In this document: positions 26,951-43,539 of the stretch, piece by piece
How positions within the stretch are numbered: position 1 is the first letter of the stretch
How the letters are laid out: every line of letters starts with the position of its first letter
NCBI GenBank assembly: GCA_035571835.1
Contig: DATNBU010000029.1
Location: 1-64,000, forward strand
DNA from: Candidatus Limnocylindrales bacterium
Lineage (GTDB): Bacteria > Desulfobacterota > Binatia > UBA1149 > CAITLU01
Length of the DNA: 64,000 nucleotides
Reading direction: 5' to 3'
Position numbers and translations under genes: made by a program
The notes under the pieces: model-generated
What the model saw: only the letters and a program-made list of their open reading frames with translations
Database searches by the model: none
What the model was told of the DNA's origin: nothing

Positions 26951-29149
<2,199 letters not shown>

Positions 29150-29170: not shown

Positions 29171-31627
29171 GTGAACATGTCAGGCTTTTCGAGTCCTGTG
29201 CTTTGCGCGCTGCGGAGAGGGCTTCTCGCCCTCTCCGCAGCGGCCCTCGTGTCGGCAGGACTGCTCGCAGTGCCGGCCGTCGTGACGGCAGCAACTCCGC
29301 TGCCGAGCACGCGCGAGGATTTCCGGCTGCCCGGCACGCAGCCGATGACGATCACCGATAATCTCGAAGTGCCTTCGAACTGCACCGGCTGTCACGCAAG
29401 CTACGGTGCGCCGGAGGTTGAACCTTATGCGAACTGGCAGGGCTCGATGATGGCCCAGTCCGGTCGCGATCCGATCACGTATGCCGCGATGGCGATCGCG
29501 AACCAGGATGCGCCGCACGCCGGCGAGATGTGCATCCGCTGCCACATGCCCAAAGGCTGGCTCGAAGGCCGGTCGGTACCCGAGGACGCGACCGCAACCA
29601 CGGCCGACGACCGCCAGGGCGTGCAGTGCAACCTCTGTCATCGCCTGGTCGATCCGTCCGGCGCGCCCGGCGCGCCCGCGGAAGACGCGGCGATCCTTGC
29701 GGCTCTTGCGACGCCGGTGACCACACACGGCGGCGCGCAGATGGTCGTCGACCCGGAAAATCGCCTGCGCGGTCCGTTCGACATCATCGCCGACCTCGGC
29801 AGCAACCCGCACGCGCCTACGCGCGAGACGCTGGTGTCTCCGTTCCACGAGACATCCGACATCTGCGGCACGTGCCACAACGTGCTCAACCCGGTGTTCC
29901 AGCGGAATCTCTCGGGTGACTATGAAGTCAGCGCGTTCGACGCCCCGGGCGACCCTGCCCTCGCGTTCCCGGAGCAGCAGACCTACTCCGAATGGGAGAA
30001 CAGCGCGTATGCGAACGGCGGCGTCGAAGCGCCCCAGTTCGCGGGCAACGGAAACGGCGTCGGCGGCGACAACACCGTGTCCACGTGCCAGAGCTGCCAC
30101 ATGCCGGCCGTCTACGGCAAGGATGCGAGCAGCGGCATCATCCGCACCGATCTGCCGCTTCACGAGATGGCCGGTGCGAATACCTTCACTCCGACCATCA
30201 TTCCGATGCATCCGGTCTTCGGCGCGGAAGTGAACGCGGATCTGCTTGCCAATGGCATCGTCAAGGCCGAGCGCATGCTGCGCCGCGCGGCGACGGTCAC
30301 CGCTTCGATCAGCGCGGGGATGCTGCACGTGCGCGTCACCAACGAGAGCGGCCACAAGCTTCCGACCGGCTATCCGGACGGACGCCGCATGTGGCTTCAC
30401 GTGCGCGCGCTCGATGCCGATCGCAACGTGCTGTTCGAGTCGGGCCGTTACGTGTTCTCCGATGCGACGCTTTCCGGTTACGGCGCGGCGCCGCTCGACG
30501 ACGACTTCGATCCGTACCTGCAGGTCTGGGAGACGCGCCAGGGCATCAGCTCCGACGTCGCGCTGCTGACCGGCCAGCCCGCCGGAGAAAGCTTCCACCT
30601 CGCGCTCAACAACGTGCGCGAGTTCGACAACCGCATTCCGCCGCGCGGGTTCACGAATGCGGCGTTCGAAACGATCGACGCCGAGCCGGTCGGCCAGGCA
30701 TACGCCGACGGCGAGTACTGGGACGACGTGGATTATCCGGTCGGAGCGTCGGCCGTGCGCGCGGAGGTCACCCTGTACTACCAGACGACGTCGAAGGAGT
30801 ACGTCGAGTTCCTGCGCGACGAAAACTTCACGACCGCCGCCGGACCTCTATTGTTCGACCTGTGGACGGCGGCCGACATGGGGCCGCCGGTCGAAATGGC
30901 GGTCGTCAACGTCGAGCCTGACGAGAAGGTCCTCGCAGGCTGCCGCAAGAACATCGACAAGCTGCAGGCGAAGTACTTCAAGACGTATCTGTCCGAATGG
31001 AGCGACTGCTACGCCGCCGAAGCCGCGAGCCTCGCTTGCCACGACGAGGACCTCAATGCGGCGATCGAAAGTGCCGCAGGCAACGTGCACGACCGTCTCG
31101 GCGGCTCGCTCGACAAGCGCTGCGCGGCCGCCAACCTGACGCCGGGAAGCCTCGGCCTCGGCAACTACTGCCCCGCGCCGTGCGCGAGCATCCTGCTGTT
31201 CGACATGAACGACGTCGGCGACTGCGCGATCTGCCTTTCGGAGAAAGTCGCGGCGGCGACGCTCGAAGCGGCGTACGGCACCACGCCGCCCACGCTGCCC
31301 GGCTCGGTCCCGCTCGGTCCGCCCAAGGATTGCCAGCTCGCCATCGGCAGCGCGGCCACGAAGCTGGCCTCGTCGTGGGCGCAGACCCTGCTCAAGTGCG
31401 AGGGAGCCAACGTCAGCGGCAAGAACGATCCGCCGCTCGACTGCTCGCTCAGCAGCAAGATCGCCAAGTCGCAGGAATCCGCCGCGTCGCGCATCGACGC
31501 ATGCACGGCGTACACCGGCATCGAGGGCTGCGCCGAGGGAGCCCCGGACAACGCAGCCGTCTACCAGTGCGTCGAAGACGCGATCGGCGCGGTGGTGACC
31601 TCGTATCCGGAGCTCGCGTACCCATGA
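29171..31627 (+). CDS. exported pentaheme c-type cytochrome with C-terminal cysteine-rich modules
   Basis: 818 residues with a signal peptide (hydrophobic about 17-40). Five CXXCH heme-attachment sites: CTGCH (71), CIRCH (121), CNLCH (153), CGTCH (232) and CQSCH (306). The heme region is followed by a beta-rich domain with the motif ESGHKLPTGYPDGRRMWLHV (about 392-411), seen in multiheme cytochromes of the c554-related type. The C-terminal 228 residues (591-818) are two cysteine-rich modules like those of its neighbours, including the stretch YGTTPPTLPGSV. Likely periplasmic or surface electron carrier; the acceptor is unknown. It follows the beta-helix gene by 21 bases, and its stop overlaps an ATG of the next gene. 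Confidence 0.88.
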   Translation: MNMSGFSSPVLCALRRGLLALSAAALVSAGLLAVPAVVTAATPLPSTREDFRLPGTQPMTITDNLEVPSNCTGCHASYGAPEVEPYANWQGSMMAQSGRDPITYAAMAIANQDAPHAGEMCIRCHMPKGWLEGRSVPEDATATTADDRQGVQCNLCHRLVDPSGAPGAPAEDAAILAALATPVTTHGGAQMVVDPENRLRGPFDIIADLGSNPHAPTRETLVSPFHETSDICGTCHNVLNPVFQRNLSGDYEVSAFDAPGDPALAFPEQQTYSEWENSAYANGGVEAPQFAGNGNGVGGDNTVSTCQSCHMPAVYGKDASSGIIRTDLPLHEMAGANTFTPTIIPMHPVFGAEVNADLLANGIVKAERMLRRAATVTASISAGMLHVRVTNESGHKLPTGYPDGRRMWLHVRALDADRNVLFESGRYVFSDATLSGYGAAPLDDDFDPYLQVWETRQGISSDVALLTGQPAGESFHLALNNVREFDNRIPPRGFTNAAFETIDAEPVGQAYADGEYWDDVDYPVGASAVRAEVTLYYQTTSKEYVEFLRDENFTTAAGPLLFDLWTAADMGPPVEMAVVNVEPDEKVLAGCRKNIDKLQAKYFKTYLSEWSDCYAAEAASLACHDEDLNAAIESAAGNVHDRLGGSLDKRCAAANLTPGSLGLGNYCPAPCASILLFDMNDVGDCAICLSEKVAAATLEAAYGTTPPTLPGSVPLGPPKDCQLAIGSAATKLASSWAQTLLKCEGANVSGKNDPPLDCSLSSKIAKSQESAASRIDACTAYTGIEGCAEGAPDNAAVYQCVEDAIGAVVTSYPELAYP
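30941..31624 (+). other. cysteine-rich module pair in the pentaheme cytochrome
   Basis: Residues 591-818. The first copy (591-717) aligns with the first copy of the next protein: both have a Gly-Leu-Gly or Gly-Phe step, a CxxxC pair, a DC..C or QC..C pair about 15 residues on, then YGTTPPTLP versus IGTTPPDLP. The second copy opens DCQLAIGSAATKLAS. Confidence 0.72.
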
Positions 31628-31662
31628 GCACGATCGTGGAAAGCCAGGGAGTGAGGACACGC

Positions 31663-33138
31663 ATGAGGAATTCGCAGCCTCTGGCAGCGGCACTCCGCGT
31701 CGTCGTGGCGGGACTGATCGTGGCGCTGACCGCGTCCGCCGGTCACGCGCGGCCCGCGTATTTCGAACAGTTCAAGGAATTCTACTCGATTCCCGACGGC
31801 AGCAATCTCGATGCATGCGGTGTGTGCCATTTCCGCTGGTACGGCACCGGCGCGCGCAACCCGTTCGGATCGACCGTCGAGCAGCAGCTCTATCTCGGCA
31901 AGACCGTCATGCAGTCGCTGATGGACGTCGAGGGGATGGACCCGGACGGCGACGGCTACACGAGCGGCGACGAAATCATCACCTTCATGACGCTGCCCGG
32001 CTACAACTGCGCGAACTATACGGACGCGATCGACCCGCCCCTCGGCTACGACACGTACATCACGCCGGGCGTTGCGACCTGTCACGAGCCGCTCGACATC
32101 CGCGTGAGCCCGACGAGTGTCGGCATGATCCTCTACAACGGCCAGACGCGGACCTCGTCGGTGACGGTGTTCAACAACGGCAGCGATGATCCGCTGAACA
32201 TCACTTCGTATGCTCTGCTGCCCGGAGCGCCGGCTTCGCTCTCGGTCAGCGGTCCGGCCACTCCGCTTTCGATTCCTGTCGGCCAGAGCATCACACTCGA
32301 CATCACGTTCTCGCCAGCAACGGACACGTTCTCCTCGACCGCGCTGCGCATCTCTTCGAACGATCCGGACGAGGCTCAGTACGACCTTCCGGTCACGGTG
32401 TTTGCCGGAGACAATCCTACGGCCAGCAATGAAGAACGTGCCCCGTGCTTCGCCGCCATCACCAAGGCCATGTCGAAGTATGCCAAGTCGCACCTTCGCA
32501 TCTGGAATCAGTGTTACCTCGAGGAGCTTGCGGGCCGCGCGTGCGATGGCGGAGACCGCGACCTCAAGCTCGCCCGCGCCGTCGAGAAGTTCGAAACCGC
32601 GGTCGGCGGGAGCAAGGACGAAGCGTGCGCCGGCGCAGGCCTGACCGGAACGACGCTCGGATTCCCGTCGTCGTGCGGCGAAGGATGCGAAAGCATCTCG
32701 ACGACCACGATCAGCGGCGTCGCCCAGTGCCTCGAATGTGAGCAGGATCTTGCGATGAAGGGCATGCTCGCCGACGGGATCGGAACCACTCCGCCGGATC
32801 TTCCCTCCAACGTGATCTCTGACGCGGAAGCCTACTCGTGCCAGCAGCGCATCGTGCGCTCGATGCAGAAGACGATGCTCAAGATGTATTCGGCGCTCAC
32901 CGAGTGCGAGCTCGACGAGGTCGTCATGGGCAGCGAAGGCGGCACCTGCCAGACCGACATCGCAGCGGAGCTCGCCGAGCTGCGCGAGCCGCTCGATGCG
33001 ACGCTCGACAAATGCACGAGCACGACCGGCCTGCTCGGCTGCCGCTTCGACGACATGCCCGATGCGCAATGCCTCGGCCTGTCCGCCGAAGACCTCGCCG
33101 CCGCCCTGACCAACACGACCTTCGGGCTGTACGAATAA
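31663..33138 (+). CDS. exported monoheme cytochrome with Ig-like domain and cysteine-rich modules
   Basis: ATG 31663 gives a clean signal peptide (MRNSQPLAAALRVVVAGLIV, ending near SAGHA); an upstream ATG at 31624 overlaps the cytochrome stop (ATGA) and would add 13 residues before it. 491 residues. One heme site CGVCH (52-56) is followed by a calcium-loop-like DPDGDGYTSGDE (93-104). An ASPM/SPD-2/Hydin-like or choice-of-anchor Ig domain (about 144-248) has the pattern SPTSVGMILYNGQTRTSSVTVFNNG and SSNDPDEAQYDLPV. Two cysteine-rich modules (262-491) close the protein, sharing GTTPPDLPSNV with the cytochrome. Third and last gene of the operon, followed by a terminator-like palindrome. Confidence 0.82.
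   Translation: MRNSQPLAAALRVVVAGLIVALTASAGHARPAYFEQFKEFYSIPDGSNLDACGVCHFRWYGTGARNPFGSTVEQQLYLGKTVMQSLMDVEGMDPDGDGYTSGDEIITFMTLPGYNCANYTDAIDPPLGYDTYITPGVATCHEPLDIRVSPTSVGMILYNGQTRTSSVTVFNNGSDDPLNITSYALLPGAPASLSVSGPATPLSIPVGQSITLDITFSPATDTFSSTALRISSNDPDEAQYDLPVTVFAGDNPTASNEERAPCFAAITKAMSKYAKSHLRIWNQCYLEELAGRACDGGDRDLKLARAVEKFETAVGGSKDEACAGAGLTGTTLGFPSSCGEGCESISTTTISGVAQCLECEQDLAMKGMLADGIGTTPPDLPSNVISDAEAYSCQQRIVRSMQKTMLKMYSALTECELDEVVMGSEGGTCQTDIAAELAELREPLDATLDKCTSTTGLLGCRFDDMPDAQCLGLSAEDLAAALTNTTFGLYE
32446..33135 (+). other. cysteine-rich module pair in the monoheme protein
   Basis: Residues 262-491. Copy 1 has cysteines at 262, 284, 294, 322, 338, 342, 356 and 359; copy 2 at 393, 415, 429, 451, 460 and 470. 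The Cys-21 residues-Cys opening is exact in both copies, as in the beta-helix protein. Confidence 0.72.
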
Positions 33139-33240: not shown

Positions 33241-34287
33241 TCAGCTCAGGCCGACTCCCAGCATCCTTCCGATTCCCCACGTCGCCGCTCCGGCGCACAT
33301 CCCGATGGCGAGCATGCGAATCCCGCCGGTGATCGCGCCCCGGCCCGAAAACAGGCTCAGCGTCGCGCCGATCCCGAACAGCGCAACGGCCGATGCGGCG
33401 ATCGAAATGCGTAGCGCGCTCGCGACGTGACCCGCCACGAATGGCAGAAACGGCAGCAGCGGCAGCAGCGCGCCGCACGAGAACGCAACGAACGACGCCA
33501 TCGCCGCTCCGATCGGTGAGCCGAGATCGTCCGGATTCAGGCCGAGCTCCTCGCGCGCGAGCGCGTCGAGCGCCGTCTGCGGATCCTTGATCAGCACGTG
33601 TGCGAGCTCGCGCGCCTTGTCGACCGGCACGCCGCGCGCACCGTAGATCAGCGCGAGCTCTTCGGCTTCCTCTTCCGGATACATCTCGAGCTCGTCGCGC
33701 TCCTGGCCGATCTGGTACTCGAACAGCTCGCGCTGCGACCGGACCGAGACGTACTCGCCGGCCGCCATCGAAAACGCCCCGGCAAGAAGCCCCGCGGTGC
33801 CCGCGAGCACGACCGCGCTCGAATCGGGCGCCGCTCCGGACACGCCGAGGATCAGGCACGCGTTGGAAACGAGCCCGTCGTTGACGCCAAAGACGGCCGC
33901 TCGAAGATTTCCGCCGGCGAGGCTCTGGTGACGCCCGCCGACCTCCGAGACGTTCTTCGGCATCACGTGCCCGTTGATCAGCAGGTGACGATCGTAGACG
34001 GAAAGGCCGCGCACCTTGACGGCCGCGAGCAGCGGCCGGCAGCGCTTCGGCCCGAGCAGACGAACGAGAATCGCAACGAGCTTGAGCCGGGGTGTCGGAC
34101 GAAACGACGGCGGCCCGTCCGACGCCGGAATGTCGCGCGCGATGATCTCCGCCTGGTCGTCGGAGGCCTTGGCGAGCGCGCGAAACAGCGTCGCGTGGTT
34201 CAGGTCGGGCTCGGCGTCGGCGACGATGCGATAGACCCAGCTCGACGCCTTCTCTTCGCGCCACCGTTCGAGAGCAGTCTCGTTCAC
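33241..34287 (-). CDS. VIT1/CCC1-type transporter with N-terminal rubrerythrin-like region
   Basis: 348 residues. The C-terminal ~225 residues are a VIT1/CCC1-family membrane transporter: FGVNDGLVSNACLILGV, GTAGLLAGAFSMAAGEYVSVRSQRE, an EE-rich cytoplasmic stretch with GVP, and AMASFVAFSCGALLPLLPF. Family members move Fe2+ or Mn2+. The first ~115 residues (ASDDQAEIIARDI; YDRHLLING) resemble the ferritin/rubrerythrin-like domain that some bacterial VIT proteins carry, but with few of the Glu/His ligands visible, so it may be degenerate. It is convergent with the cytochrome operon. Confidence 0.85.
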   Translation of the reverse strand: MNETALERWREEKASSWVYRIVADAEPDLNHATLFRALAKASDDQAEIIARDIPASDGPPSFRPTPRLKLVAILVRLLGPKRCRPLLAAVKVRGLSVYDRHLLINGHVMPKNVSEVGGRHQSLAGGNLRAAVFGVNDGLVSNACLILGVSGAAPDSSAVVLAGTAGLLAGAFSMAAGEYVSVRSQRELFEYQIGQERDELEMYPEEEAEELALIYGARGVPVDKARELAHVLIKDPQTALDALAREELGLNPDDLGSPIGAAMASFVAFSCGALLPLLPFLPFVAGHVASALRISIAASAVALFGIGATLSLFSGRGAITGGIRMLAIGMCAGAATWGIGRMLGVGLS

Positions 34288-34379: not shown

Positions 34380-37352
34380 TCAATTCGTATTGCGCTCGAG
34401 GAACGACAGCAGCGGCGCGTAGACCTGGTTGTGCACCGGATCGTCCGCGGCAGCGACGATGTCGATGTGCGCGTAGCCCTCCGAGATGTACGCCTCGAAG
34501 CCTCCGTCGATGTCGCCGTAGGTCGGCGTGATGGGGTCGCTCAGCGCCACGCGCGCCGCTCCGGTGCAGCTCGGCGCCGTGCAGGTGCCGATGCTCTCGG
34601 CAAAACCGAGGAACGCGCCGGGCGTGTTCGAGATGCCGTTGCTGCCGCCGAAGCAGATCACCGGGATGTCGATGTCGGCGCCTTCGGTCAGGTTCTCGAT
34701 GTCGGGCCGCCCGCGCCCGATCGACAGTGCGCTCGAGTCGAGCCCGCCGGTAAAGCCGTCCTCGACGAACACGCGCAGCTCGCTCGTCACGCCGAGACCG
34801 GCCGACGGGAAATACCAGTCGCCGATGTTGCGATCGCCCGTGCGGACCATCGTCAGCACGTTCTCCATCGGCGTGATCTCTTTTTCCTGTCCGTTCAGCT
34901 CGAACGTACCGGTCGCCGCGCCGTGATCGGGAACGGCAGCCGCAGGCATGGACAGCTCGATGCCCTTCCAGTAACGATACGGATCATCGAACGGTGCACC
35001 GGCCAGGTAGTAGGCGCCGAGATCGTTGTTCACGCCGTTATCCGAAAAGCCCATCGACGCCATGAACGAAACCTCCGGCGAGTAGTCGTCGTCGAGGAAG
35101 AATCCGACGGCCGCCTCCGCGCTGCCTTTGGGCAGCAGCGCAAGAAGCGAAAGGCCCGGAACGGCCTGGATCGGCGTCTGCGTGCCGTACTTTTTCTGCG
35201 CAACCGAAAGCGAATCGGGATGACGCCGTGCCTGCACGACGACCGAATCGCCGACCGCATGGATCTGCGGCGAGATGACTCCGCCGGCGAATGCATCGAC
35301 CGGCACGATGCACTTGTTGGTGGCCGCGCCGGCGGCGAGCGTCACGCTGTTGCAGTCCGAGTTGGTGGCGCACGGCGTGCCTTCCCAGCAGCGCGGCGCG
35401 CCGTCCTTGATCGCGTGGTAGAGCCCGCCGTCGGCCTTGGCGATGACCATGTCGAGCGAGTCGGACGACGGTGTTCCGGTCGGCAGCGAATCGCCGCCGC
35501 CTTCGAACAGCACCAGGCCGGCGACTTTGCTGTAGCCCGGAACCACCGCCACGCCGGGATCGAGGTCGGTCGCCGCGTAGCGCGCACTGAACAGCGTGCC
35601 GAGCGAATGGCCGCCGAGGAAGACCGTCGGCGAGCCGGATACGGCGTGCGCTGCATCGACGACCGCGTCGATGTCGTGGATGAACATGTTGTACGTGAAG
35701 TTCGCGATGAACGGGATGTCGCTGCCCTCGTGGAATACCGCGCGACGCGTGATGCGAGGGTCGAGCGCGAGTCCGAGCTCACCGCCGAAATACCAGTTGA
35801 TGCCGAGATCCGGGTCGTCCTCGCTGTCGGCGAGCGCGCCGCCGAGATCGTCCTCGAGCTGGTCGGTGCGCCGGTCGAACGCCCACACTTCGAGCACGAT
35901 GTTACCCGCCGCCGCCGCTTTGGCCACCATCGTCTCGGCCACGATCTTCAGCGAATGCGTGCCGCCTGCGAAGCCCGGAACGAGCACGAGAATCGCGTCG
36001 GGATCGCCGGCGCCCGGCGCGTGGTAGCGAACGTACGATGCGTGATTGAGGTCCGGCGTCGTCGTGCCGAACTGGATCGCAACCGAGCTGCCCGGATCGA
36101 CGGCGTTCGGAAGCGTCCCGTCCGGCGTGTGCGCGGGGTGCGCAGCGCTCGGGATCAGCACGCTCTCGTGTACGGTCGGGCCGACCTGGCACGTGTTGGT
36201 GCACGTGTCGTTGGTATCACCGTTGCCGTCGTCGCAGACCTCGCCGTCCTCGACGACGTTGTTGCCGCAGACCGGCGTACAGAAATTGCCGCGCGTGAAG
36301 ACGTCGTAACCGCTGTCCTCGCCGAGCTCACACGTGCGCGGTACGGCCTCGTCGATCGACAGGAACAGCGGCGGCAACGCCGCGTCGCGCGCGCAATCGA
36401 CGACGTCGGCGACCGTGGTCGCCGACGAGCACCCGAGCTCGAAGTTCAGGTCGGCCTTCATATCGGCGGCCGTAACCGATGCGCACGCCGCTGCAGCCTT
36501 GCTGGCGAGGTCGGTCGCGGCGAGGGCCGTCACCTTCTTGTCGGCTTTCGCACACGAGGTCGAGGCATCTTCGAAACAGGCCGGCGGCTGGCTCTCGTTG
36601 GTGCGCAGCCTGTCTTCGTGAAGCTGGCACTGGAGCAGGTCTGCGACGCAGGCGGAGAGATCTTTCGGCGTCTTCGAGACCGTCTTCTCCAGTATCTTTG
36701 CAAGGCCCGCCTGGCAGTCGGCAAGCAGCGCCGGGTCGCCCGCGGACGGTGCGACCGGGGCGCGGACATCGAGGCACTCGACGTCGTGCGCGCGCGTCGC
36801 AAGCAGCCCCGCCGCATTCAACAGCTCGTAGGTGCGCGGTCGCAGCATTTCGGTGATGTCGTTGGAGCGGCAGCGCGTGCGTGCGAGCAGGCAGTCATAC
36901 GCGCCCGCCTCCGTCTCGACGACGCCGCATTCGGCGAGCAGGCGCCGCTGTCCGAGACCGACCGATGTGCGGTAGTCCGTCTCGGCAAGACCCGAGCAGC
37001 TCTTGCCCAGCTTTTCGACCGCGATCGTTTCGGCGTCGTCGGCCTTATCGAGCAGCTTGTTGCAGGTCGCGATCGCATCGACCGAGCAGGTCGCAAAGTT
37101 CCCGCTCCCAAGCTCGTCGTCAAGCTTGCACGCGAGCAGTGCATCCGAGCATTTTCCAAGAGCGGACGTACGCTTCTTCAACAGTACGCTCGAGTTTTTC
37201 AGGAACGCCTGGGCACAATCGTGGAACACCACCGGGGCGATCAACGCACCGGCGTTGCGAACGTCCGCGGCGAGCAGCGCCACAGCGGCCAGGAAAACCA
37301 ATGCGGAAGTGGTCGCGCGCGTGCGCGACGAAAGGCAGGCAGATGCAAACAT
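34380..37352 (-). CDS. exported alpha/beta hydrolase (esterase/lipase-like) with cysteine-rich modules and DUF4215 repeat
   Basis: 990 residues. After a signal peptide (about 16-36) two cysteine-rich modules of the type found in the nearby redox operon fill about 46-341. A DUF4215-type Myxococcus cysteine-rich repeat follows ([17 protein letters not shown], about 361-388). The C-terminal ~600 residues form an alpha/beta-hydrolase: [12 protein letters not shown] near 457, nucleophile elbow GHSLGT with Ser583, and a candidate catalytic His962 in GYAHIDI; the acid residue is not assigned. The arrangement implies a secreted enzyme cleaving an ester or similar bond; substrate unknown. It is on the opposite strand to the redox operon. 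Confidence 0.82.
36330..37217 (-). other. cysteine-rich modules in the secreted hydrolase
   Basis: Residues 46-341. Copy 1 opens [17 protein letters not shown] with the next Cys 22 residues later; copy 2 opens [17 protein letters not shown] with the next Cys also 22 residues later. Overall identity to the redox-operon copies is low, but spacing and helix character agree. Confidence 0.55.
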
Positions 37353-37435: not shown

Positions 37436-38620
37436 TCAACGCAGATCGATCGCCATGGCCGTTGCTTCGCCTCCGCCGATGCACAGTGACGCAACGCCCC
37501 GTGAAAGACCCCGCGATCGCAGGGCCGCAATCAGCGTGACGAGGATGCGCGCGCCCGAGGCTCCGATCGGATGGCCGAGCGCGCACGCTCCGCCGTGGAC
37601 GTTGACGCGCTCCGGATCGAGACCGTGCTCGCGCACGGACGCCATGGCGACTACGGCGAAGGCTTCGTTGATCTCGTAGAGATCGACGTCGGAGGCTTTC
37701 CAGCCGGACGCGGACAGGACTTTCGTGATCGCATGGACCGGCGCGGTCGTGAACCAGCCGGGCTCCTGCGCGTGCGTCGCGTGCGAGACGATGCGGGCGA
37801 GCGGCTCGATACCGCGGCGCGCGGCCTCGCTTTCGCGCATCAGCACGAGTGCGGCGGCGCCGTCGGAGATCGATGACGAGTTGGCCGCAGTGACCGTTCC
37901 GTCTTTTCGGAACGCAGGGCGCAGAGTCGGGATCCGCGACGGATCGGCCGAAAACGGCTGCTCGTCGCGGTCGATGCGGCGCTCGCCGCTGCGGTCGCGG
38001 ACGGTGACCGGCGCGATCTCCCATGCGAACGATCCGTCTTCGTTCGCGCGCTTTGCGCGCTCGAGCGAACGGATCGCCCACGCGTCCTGCTCGTCGCGCG
38101 AGAACGCGAACTTCGTCGCGCAGTCTTCGGCGAACGTTCCCATCAATCGGCCCTTGTCGTATGCGTCTTCGAGACCGTCGAAGAACATGTGATCGACGAG
38201 CACGCCGTTTCCCATGCGCTGTCCGCTGCGGACCTTCGGCAGAAGGTACGGAGCGCTGCTCATCGACTCCATTCCGCCGGCGACGGCGACGCGGGCGCTG
38301 CCGGCGAGCAGCAGGTCGTGCGCGAGCATCGCGGCTTTCATGCCGGAGCCGCACATCTTGTTGACGGTGGTGGCGCCGGTGCCGAGCGGCAGACCTGCGC
38401 CAAGCGACGCCTGCCGGGCCGGGGCCTGCCCCTGGCCTGCGGGGAGCACACATCCCATCAGGACTTCGTCGATTTCCGCGGCCGGAACGCGCGATCGCTC
38501 GACCGCCGCAGCAATCGCAGTCGCGCCGAGCTCCGTCGCCGCCACGCCCTGAAACACGCCCTGAAAAGACCCGAGCGCAGTCCGCGCCCCCGACACAATG
38601 ACAACCGGATCGTCAACCAT
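37436..38620 (-). CDS. acetyl-CoA acetyltransferase (thiolase)
   Basis: 394-residue type II thiolase catalysing acetyl-CoA condensation or 3-ketoacyl-CoA cleavage. Catalytic residues are intact: acyl-binding Cys90 in [11 protein letters not shown], His350 in [17 protein letters not shown] and the base Cys380 in [21 protein letters not shown] is also standard. No beta-oxidation or polyhydroxybutyrate genes adjoin it, so its pathway cannot be read from context. It is separated from the next gene by a composite palindromic repeat. Confidence 0.95.
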
Positions 38621-41179: not shown

Positions 41180-43372
41180 TTATTTCACGCGGATCGACGC
41201 GGTGTTGGAGTAGGCGGAGACTTTGCCTGTCGCCGTGCTGAATGCCTGTACGCGATAGACATAACCGCCCTTGGGCGCGCTCTGCGAGAACGTCTGCGCG
41301 CCCGCGGCCGTGGTCGCGACGCGTGTGTACGGATCGCGGGTGGATGCGGCGCGCTCGACGTAAAAGCCCGACTCGTTCGTCGAGTTGTCCTTCCATTTGA
41401 GCGTGACGACGCTGCCGGCGACGCTCGCGGTCAGGCCCGACGGCGCCGCCAGCACGCTCGGATCCGGGCTGACCGTGATCGCAACGCCCGCGGAGCCCGT
41501 GGCGCCGAGGTTGTCGGTCACCGTGAGGGTCGCCGTGTAGCTGCCCGCCGCGGTGTACGTGTGCGACGGAGTCGCTCCGCTGCCGGTCTGGCCGTCGCCG
41601 AAGGTCCACGCATACGACGCGATCGTGCCGTCGCTGTCGCTCGAAGCCGCGCCGCTCAGCGCCACCGTCAGCGGCGCGGTTCCCGACGTCGGAGTTGCCG
41701 ACGCGACCGCCGCCGGCGCCGCGTTCGCCGTTCCGGACTTCGCGAGCACGAACAAGGTCACGCTCTGCGCCGGCACGGACGTCGAAAGCGCGCCCGATGT
41801 CAGGCTGACGCTCGCCGGTCCGCTGATCGATCCCGCGGCGAGGCGCCAGTACTGCGCCGTCGGCTGCGCGGTGAAGTTCGCCAGACTGATCGTGACCGGC
41901 GTCGAGCCGGACAGATACTTGGAGACGACCATGACGGTCAGCGCGCCGTCGCTCGCACGCTCGGCGGCGAACACCGAAAGATTGTCGGCGTTGGCGCTCG
42001 ACGTCGCCGCCACGCTGGTGTCGCCGAAGCTGCCGCGGCTGCCGTCGTAGTTGCGATACATCTTGATCGCCTTGAACGCCGGCGTGGTCGCGGCCGGAGT
42101 CGTCCAGCGTGCGGCCGCATCGAGGCCTTCGCGCCCGAAGATGCCGAGAATGTCGGCCTGCGCGGTCGCGCCGTTCATGTGGCCTTCGGCGCCCCAGTTG
42201 TACTCGGTGATCGCGGTCTCGGTTCCGGGGTAATACGCGGCGACCCAGTTCTTGATGCGCGGGATCAGCATGACCTTGTCGGCGATCCACGATTCGTCGG
42301 TGTAGCTCGGATCCCACAGCGAGCGCGTCGAGCGGTTGCGGCGAAGCTGCATCGTCGTCGAGGTATCGGTGCCGAACTCGCCGCTCTGCGGGTAATAGTG
42401 CACGCTGAAGACGTCGAGCAGGCGCTTTCCGGCTGCCGCCTGCGCCTGCCGCATCTGGTCGAGGTACCACGGAAGGTAGTCCATGTTCCCGTGCGACGAC
42501 CGGTCGGGATACGGCTGCTGCCAGTTGTGCGTCGCGCCGTAGAGCTGATCGAGGCCGCTGTAGAAGTATCCTCCCCAGCCCCACTCTTCCGGACCGACGA
42601 TCTTCGCGGCAGCGTCGTTGTTCTTGATCATCGTCGCGTATGCGACCGTCTTGCTCCTCAGTGCATCCATCGACTCGCCGGCCGGATGCACATCGCGATG
42701 GGTCGAGTGCCAGATGCTCGGCTCGTTATCGAGGATGTAGTAGCGAAGTCCGCTCGCCTGCGCGCTGCCCCACGTCGAGACGAGGTGCTGCACCCAGCCC
42801 TGCTCCAGCGTCGTGCTGTTGGGAGTGTTCGCGTCGAGAGGATCGTTGCCGGTGACGTTGGTGCCGTCGGTGCGCACGCCGTTGCCGGCGTCGGGGAACC
42901 ATTGCCAGTCGCTGTCCTGCTGCGCACCGTACTTCGCGATCGAGAAGCTCGACCTGCGCGCGCGCGAGGCACCGAGCGTGGCGACGTACTCGATGATCGG
43001 GATCGTCAGCATCGGCTCGGCGGCGGCCGAGCGGCTGGCGGCGATGAACGTGTCGCCGACTTCACCCGGCGTCGCGCTCGAGTACGCGAGACTCTCGAAA
43101 TACCAGTCGGCCCCGCGGTTGTCGGCGTTGAGCTGCCAGTTGTAGCGGCTCGTGTTGTTGCCGCCGCTGCGGTTGAGCGGACAGTTGAGCTCGGTCAGCT
43201 GCGCGGCCGTCGCGTGGGCGACGCCGTAGACCCGGGGATCGATCGGATGGCGGCCGGACGCGGGATTGACCTGGACCGTTACGGCAGCGTTCTGGGCGCC
43301 GGCGGCCGACGGAGCCAGCACGGCGACGGCCAGCAGCAGGCCCGCGATCCGCGAGCGACTACGAAAGTGCAT
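41180..43372 (-). CDS. secreted glycoside hydrolase family 44-type enzyme with PKD and Fn3 domains
   Basis: 730 residues. Signal peptide MHFRSRSRIAGLLLAVAVLA ending near AGAQ; RBS AAGGGGG is 6-7 bases upstream of ATG 43372, so a longer in-frame extension upstream is not used. The catalytic domain (about 30-545) shows GH44 traits: general acid Glu217 in LDNEPSIWHSTHRDVHP and nucleophile Glu390 in ITEYNWG. GH44 enzymes are endoglucanases/xyloglucanases. A PKD domain (about 552-637; AWTFGDGQTGSGATPSHTY) and a fibronectin type III domain (642-730) follow. The stop lies 4 bases from the end of the mobile-like repeat. Confidence 0.9.
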   Translation of the reverse strand: MHFRSRSRIAGLLLAVAVLAPSAAGAQNAAVTVQVNPASGRHPIDPRVYGVAHATAAQLTELNCPLNRSGGNNTSRYNWQLNADNRGADWYFESLAYSSATPGEVGDTFIAASRSAAAEPMLTIPIIEYVATLGASRARRSSFSIAKYGAQQDSDWQWFPDAGNGVRTDGTNVTGNDPLDANTPNSTTLEQGWVQHLVSTWGSAQASGLRYYILDNEPSIWHSTHRDVHPAGESMDALRSKTVAYATMIKNNDAAAKIVGPEEWGWGGYFYSGLDQLYGATHNWQQPYPDRSSHGNMDYLPWYLDQMRQAQAAAGKRLLDVFSVHYYPQSGEFGTDTSTTMQLRRNRSTRSLWDPSYTDESWIADKVMLIPRIKNWVAAYYPGTETAITEYNWGAEGHMNGATAQADILGIFGREGLDAAARWTTPAATTPAFKAIKMYRNYDGSRGSFGDTSVAATSSANADNLSVFAAERASDGALTVMVVSKYLSGSTPVTISLANFTAQPTAQYWRLAAGSISGPASVSLTSGALSTSVPAQSVTLFVLAKSGTANAAPAAVASATPTSGTAPLTVALSGAASSDSDGTIASYAWTFGDGQTGSGATPSHTYTAAGSYTATLTVTDNLGATGSAGVAITVSPDPSVLAAPSGLTASVAGSVVTLKWKDNSTNESGFYVERAASTRDPYTRVATTAAGAQTFSQSAPKGGYVYRVQAFSTATGKVSAYSNTASIRVK

Positions 43373-43539
43373 CTTGAGTTCCCCCTTCTTCCGATGGCCG
43401 GCGAGTACCCACGCGCCTGCCGAAAGCCGGATTGTAGTCGGGCTCGCGGCAGGCGAACAACGGGGTTCGGAAAACAACCGAACCTCACCAAGGGCTTGAA
43501 CAGGATCGCCCAAGCCCCGGTTTCACTGAGGATATTGGC

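Follow-up and report, generated by a model that had tools for sequence, protein, structure and literature searches.

SLH, LysM, dockerin and the T9SS C-terminal domain are general anchoring modules. Each puts one module to use on a wide range of unrelated exported proteins, and the same likeness is found in the Binatia module described here, which differs from them in that none of 19 tested sequences has a meaningful match in Pfam (best E 0.047) or NCBIfam (best E 0.052), with no family hit in more than two sequences. The Binatia are uncultured. Our literature searches yielded no account of how Binatia arrange their exported proteins, nothing joining Binatota with a secreted cysteine-rich domain, and nothing under DUF4215. 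A word search of PMC8262859 gave 0 occurrences for words beginning with secret, esterase, cysteine, outer membrane and multiheme, and 3 for hydrolase.

The enzyme that carries the module in the window (the whole 64,000-nucleotide stretch of DNA analysed) comes closest to two kinds of known protein. The putative lipase/esterase of Sulfolobus solfataricus (PDB 2rau) shares with it the alpha/beta-hydrolase core, the aligned nucleophile, and the motifs of a putative strand-6 acid and a late His, but has 350 residues, no modules, and 18% identity over 312 aligned residues. The lipoprotein hydrolases of Halioglobus, Haliea, Acidovorax and Variovorax share its hydrolase domain, aligned at 36-42% identity, whereas their N-terminus consists of a lipobox and a short linker, with no modules and no DUF4215 found. 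Our preferred reading, whose chances we put at about even, is that the window protein is an exported serine ester hydrolase in which the lipid anchor has been replaced by a lineage-specific pair of general docking modules.

Fold and predicted catalytic residues of the exported hydrolase

The gene lies on the minus strand at 34380-37352, as an ORF of 990 residues with an ATG start and full-length orthologues; GGAGGAGG stands immediately 5' of the ATG. A promoter scan found none, and terminator-like sites numbered 7 against a shuffled mean of 3.7. The domain order read in the first-pass annotation, namely signal peptide, two modules, Myxococcus cysteine-rich repeat and an alpha/beta hydrolase of about 600 residues, is borne out in this ORF (coordinates of its parts are all on the minus strand). 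The signal peptide region, plain-looking by eye, covers residues 1 to about 36 (37245-37352), and a home-made script pattern found no lipobox at its end. Matches to the module profile place module 1 at residues ~46-158 (36879-37217) and module 2 at residues ~213-325 (36378-36716). They are followed by a DUF4215/TIGR02232 cysteine-rich acidic repeat at residues 361-390 (36183-36272), which passes the NCBIfam cut-off for TIGR02232 myxo_disulf_rpt (23.7 against 20.8 bits) and stays under the gathering score of Pfam DUF4215 (PF13948; 23.8 against 27 bits). The likeness to the Myxococcus cysteine-rich repeat consists of this one repeat; the window hydrolase differs in having it singly, inside a larger enzyme.

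Residues 388-990 (34383-36191) have an alpha/beta-hydrolase fold, as judged from the AlphaFold2 model (44 rows, pLDDT 82.8) and from structure and profile comparison. The nearest structure is 2rau, with a VIA-align Z of 22.5 and an rmsd of 3.6 over the aligned residues, a Foldseek E of 2.3e-5, and a sequence-profile E of 2.7e-7. Absence of a family from the VIA-align lists was not counted as evidence for a different fold. Pfam alpha/beta-hydrolase models match the window hydrolase only below threshold (Hydrolase_4, PF12146, 16.9 against 27 bits).

The GHSLG motif and late His noted at first pass are present as GGHSLG at 580-585 and His962. The nucleophile Ser583, in GGHSxGT (35604-35606, minus strand), and the catalytic His962 (34467-34469, minus strand) are invariant in 44 of 44 aligned rows, as are Gly581, His582 and Gly585. 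The likely catalytic acid is Glu617 (35502-35504, minus strand), which directly follows the predicted strand 613-616 and is Glu in 40 rows and Asp in 4; in the profile alignment the LLDGG of 2rau puts an Asp opposite it. We infer a triad Ser583-Glu617-His962 with Glu617 as a strand-6 acid, of which the acid is the less certain member because Glu488, Asp501, Asp560, Asp596, Asp754, Asp845, Glu953 and Asp964 also lie in columns that are acidic in at least 43 of the 44 rows. The usual place of the acid, after strand 7, is position 905, where 41 rows have Asn, 2 Ser and 1 Ala. This substitution would suit a catalytically dead domain acting as a binding protein, an explanation that we regard as most improbable given the invariance of Ser583 and His962 and the Glu or Asp at 617 in every row. 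The gene product is probably an exported, ester-cutting serine hydrolase of the lipase/esterase type, this activity being predicted from the sequence and the model. On its own it would be an ordinary result, an exported esterase-like enzyme. Gene neighbourhoods of the hydrolase, listed by ORF only for one locus each of Acidovorax and Halioglobus and for two others, contained no clue to the substrate.

A cysteine-rich module reused across the genome

Close to the hydrolase, on the plus strand, lies a cytochrome operon whose three products also carry module pairs according to domain and module scans. They are op1, an exported beta-helix protein with an N-terminal pair (26951-29149); op2, an exported multiheme cytochrome with a C-terminal pair (29171-31627); and op3, an exported protein with a sub-threshold ASH/choice-of-anchor-D match and a C-terminal pair (31663-33138, its start picked by eye within a longer ORF, 30997-33138). 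The claim that hydrolase and operon share a homologous module survived profile-profile comparison, the refutation test fixed beforehand. With hhalign, the hydrolase module pairs (9 rows) matched the op3 pairs at E 2.4e-7 and the op2 pairs at 4.9e-4, and single hydrolase modules matched the op2 pairs at 1.4e-5 and the op3 pairs at 5.5e-5, while op2 against op3 gave 1.3e-48. Six reversed controls involving the hydrolase ranged from 0.13 to 0.34, and op2 against reversed op3 gave 0.11. The hydrolase-module profile alone scored op1 at 14.6 bits; the highest score was 8.0 among 3,000 composition shuffles and 11.0 among 3,000 in which Cys was fixed. As op2 and op3 are not among the matches listed for this one-sided profile, the link of the hydrolase to these two proteins needs profiles on both sides.

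Among the 19 rows of profile A2 are one module of the hydrolase and several of the operon; over the window's own genome this profile has 54 matches at E <= 1. In the stretches retrieved from this genome, 31 proteins contain the module at E <= 0.001 (two copies in 27 of them, three in 1 and one in 3), placed in the N-terminal half in 26 and in the C-terminal half in 5. Their partner domains above the Pfam cut-off include M12 metallopeptidase, DUF6851 (in a protein where a vanadium-haloperoxidase helical domain falls just under the cut-off), SGL, RCC1, carboxypeptidase regulatory, beta-helix, cytochrome c554-type and DUF4215; Hydrolase_4/PETase and ice-binding domains appear below threshold, and many partner regions have no Pfam match at 0.001. 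One of the module proteins (L193:3251-5599), with sub-threshold PETase and Hydrolase_4 matches, is a possible further exported hydrolase. The genome also encodes a paralogue of the window hydrolase (L002, G000:C29:255215-257365), which has the module pair but no DUF4215 repeat.

Up to 60 aligned modules show four near-invariant cysteines (58/58, 58/60, 58/58 and 60/60), which would be expected to form disulphides inside each module. Lys or Arg occupies module positions 7, 11 and 18 in 76, 85 and 68% of the aligned modules, positions that would lie on one face of the first helix. Lysine makes up 5.8% of residues inside modules and 1.4% outside, and all 31 proteins have the higher share inside. 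We considered and rejected net charge as the means of capturing an acidic polymer: the modules are slightly acidic (-3.2 per 100 residues, against -6.1 for the rest), so that the lysine stripe alone, and not net charge, points to an acidic polymer.

Modelled alone, the module pair forms helical bundles (pLDDT 84.7). With this model Foldseek returned nothing at 0.001, and the module profile had no match among PDB chains (best E 0.28). The PhoU-like proteins 2iiu and 2olt can be aligned with the greater part of the model (Z 9.8 and 9.4; the 9.8 match has an rmsd of 5.0 over 197 aligned residues), but share only 6-8% identity with it, and these Z values lie within the range given by unrelated long-helix models. 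PhoU is cytosolic.

Two kinds of C-terminal sequence were seen among the module proteins. A tail GRV(I/V).Q..A..FC....Y.PG...CP ends L173, two proteins of L174, L185, L187:5752-8325 and L194, whereas L177, L178 and L181 end near a PGP..IR or PGP..VxxE..RY motif. The shared tails are possibly further C-terminal domains of the same secretome.

Of 118 members of the class that were sampled, 50 have the module at E <= 1e-5. At E <= 0.001 it was present in 3 of 59 genomes of a phylum sample, all three of them class members and the window's own among them, in 10 of 50 genomes holding a hydrolase relative (drawn from 50 of 69 loci), and in 2 of 77 genomes of the phylum of G183 (G183 and G209, whose hydrolase relatives L121 and L151 have no module). 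The module is centred on Binatia, and perhaps not confined there.

Module pair and lipobox in the hydrolase family

A hydrolase homologue at 1e-20 occurs in 19 of 39 genomes, the window's own included, and the full architecture of module pair, repeat and hydrolase in 9 (G000, the window's genome, and G005, G002, G006, G011, G009, G008, G012 and G017). The only homologue of the same-genus G001 has another cysteine-rich N-terminus instead of the module form. A scan of named genomes gave 71 hydrolase loci, the near ones titled Candidatus Binatia, UBP10 or Deltaproteobacteria, and found the hydrolase domain in Halioglobus, Haliea, Acidovorax, Variovorax and others as well. A survey of N-termini covered 59 homologues, 56 of them from these loci and three added to them (L017, the paralogue L002 and the window protein itself); L153, L155 and L160-L172 (15 partial or short matches) were left out.

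Module pair and lipobox do not occur together in any of the 59: 15 homologues have the module pair, 31 a lipobox, 13 neither, and 0 both. Lipobox calls were made with the home-made pattern, and four labels were corrected by eye with the totals staying at 15, 31 and 13: L110 and L125, whose lipobox-like Cys is followed by a normal cleavage site and a domain rich in Cys, were moved to 'neither', and L122 and L134, with LxxC motifs missed by the pattern, were moved to the lipobox group. L108 and L115, counted among the 13, are cut at a contig edge. The same pattern gave one doubtful match (L181) in the 31 module proteins of the window's genome. In the Gamma- and Betaproteobacteria seen here, the hydrolase is a lipoprotein without modules.

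An exchange is suggested by L017, from Binatia genome G018, where a lipobox and a Thr/Pro linker precede the DUF4215 repeat and the hydrolase; the window protein has modules and DUF4215 in that place. L017 groups among module-bearing rows on the tree, and its genome has only 2 module matches. L139, likewise with a lipobox, groups among rows in which another Cys domain stands at the N-terminus; since 19 module matches were found in its genome, G199, it is probably from Binatia. One Binatia homologue, and probably a second, carries a lipobox in place of the N-terminal Cys domains. The tree comes from a quick search of 61 related rows (L108, L115 and L130 left out, seven genome-search rows added), and on it 5 changes account for the three kinds of N-terminus, where shuffling gives a mean of 25.8. 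Among 18 Binatia genomes with a known N-terminal type (G024, with its N-terminus cut, was dropped), the 12 with the module-form hydrolase are richer in modules genome-wide than the other 6 (p = 0.0028, or p = 0.0056 after four matches are subtracted from each of the 12), a contrast confounded by descent.

In most of the 13 homologues with neither feature, other Cys-rich domains stand in the module slot. Two such types were distinguished, one in L111, L113, L154, L018, L019 and L022, and the other in L112, L114, L121, L126 and L151. The second was considered as a divergent form of the module and dropped: it compares with the module at an hhalign E of 0.062, and L114 alone has one module-profile match, at 0.0032. 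Since other Cys-rich domains fill the same place, the N-terminal slot tolerates many things.

The proposed operon link and possible roles of the module pair

The first-pass annotation had proposed that the hydrolase, lying 1.2 kb from the cytochrome operon, may be recruited to the same surface structure. The distance was accurate: the gap between hydrolase and op3 is 1.24 kb and contains a VIT1-family gene without module (33241-34287, minus strand; ORF, Pfam and module scan), which we take to be of the iron/manganese transporter type. That the module lets the hydrolase bind the neighbouring operon proteins in one functional complex appears very unlikely to us. Besides the module homology it could call on the gap itself, since the chance of one of at most 1,244 bp is 0.014 when all 30 other module genes count and 0.0005 for the operon alone, both comparisons being chosen post hoc. 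The hydrolase also directly adjoins the operon in G005, as it does in the window's genome, these being the only such cases seen and two genomes of one family, and in G007 hydrolase paralogues lie ~9 and ~16 kb from the operon. The two are nevertheless not adjacent in G008, G011 and G017, whose contigs run long on the operon's side (that of G012 is too short for a call), and the op1-op2-op3 set recurs in the class by itself. Co-occurrence, with the operon defined by a full cytochrome match (op2 below 1e-200) and the hydrolase by its full architecture, looked favourable over 39 genomes (of 9 with the hydrolase and 12 with the operon, 6 have both, which leaves 3 with the hydrolase alone, 6 with the operon alone and 24 without either; Fisher p = 0.014, confounded by descent), but within the order (13 genomes: 5, 3, 2 and 3, respectively) it is no more than chance (p = 0.59) and was dropped as support. 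For the three genomes with the hydrolase only, G002, G006 and G009 (97, 94 and 96% complete), a search with the operon cytochrome was negative at 1e-10. The module is moreover common to 27 further proteins of the genome. In G002 and G006, as in the window, the kept neighbour of the hydrolase is a thiolase (Pfam; 37436-38620, minus strand, 83 bp upstream), and because the pair is kept there the two genes may be co-transcribed. With 31 module proteins, and full hydrolases in genomes lacking the operon, the operon-specific part of the proposal is weak, while the wider idea of a shared module on one surface structure is favoured; the operon link would be a special case of it, one that the data do not favour. 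Further along the window, at 41180-43513 on the minus strand, lies a GH44 glycoside hydrolase with a PKD domain, a weak fn3 match and no module.

As to what the pair does, a domain standing in the lipobox's place could equally be a spacer, or a folding or stability domain, on an enzyme that is freely released without docking. We hold this to be somewhat unlikely, even though such a role fits nearly as well as surface retention: the module is a long-helix bundle, and its slot is also filled by other Cys-rich domains, as in G001 of the same genus, which likewise counts against docking. The conserved lysines and the near-strict pairing, on unrelated partners and at either end of the protein, suggest instead a selected surface. 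The many unrelated cargos and the Binatia-centred spread would also be compatible with a secretion or sorting signal for a dedicated machinery, with a role like that of dockerin or the T9SS C-terminal domain and not that of an anchor; a pair of ~210 residues found at either end is unlike familiar sorting signals, and we consider this function improbable.

Under the docking interpretation, an exported hydrolase, present as a lipoprotein in the Gamma- and Betaproteobacteria surveyed here, would in many Binatia have its lipid anchor's place taken by a Cys-rich, lysine-striped pair of helical modules, with a DUF4215 repeat behind it in some cases. The pair would hold the hydrolase at the surface in the lipid's stead. 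It would act as a general retention device on 31 exported proteins, those of the cytochrome operon included, at either end, and would attach them, without a covalent bond, to a single structure on the cell surface or outside the cell. That Binatia have in this pair a surface-docking or sorting system not described before, a double helical bundle with one receptor or polymer, functionally exchangeable with a lipoprotein anchor, is a tentative proposal, possible though not probable. If it is true, a large part of the secretome, some thirty exported proteins with enzymes and cytochromes among them, would be assembled on one structure. The module, which matches no Pfam or NCBIfam family, recurs across the class and appears to stand in the slot of a lipid anchor in one enzyme family, provides a testable handle on the organisation of exported proteins in Binatia, and a tag for listing their secretome.
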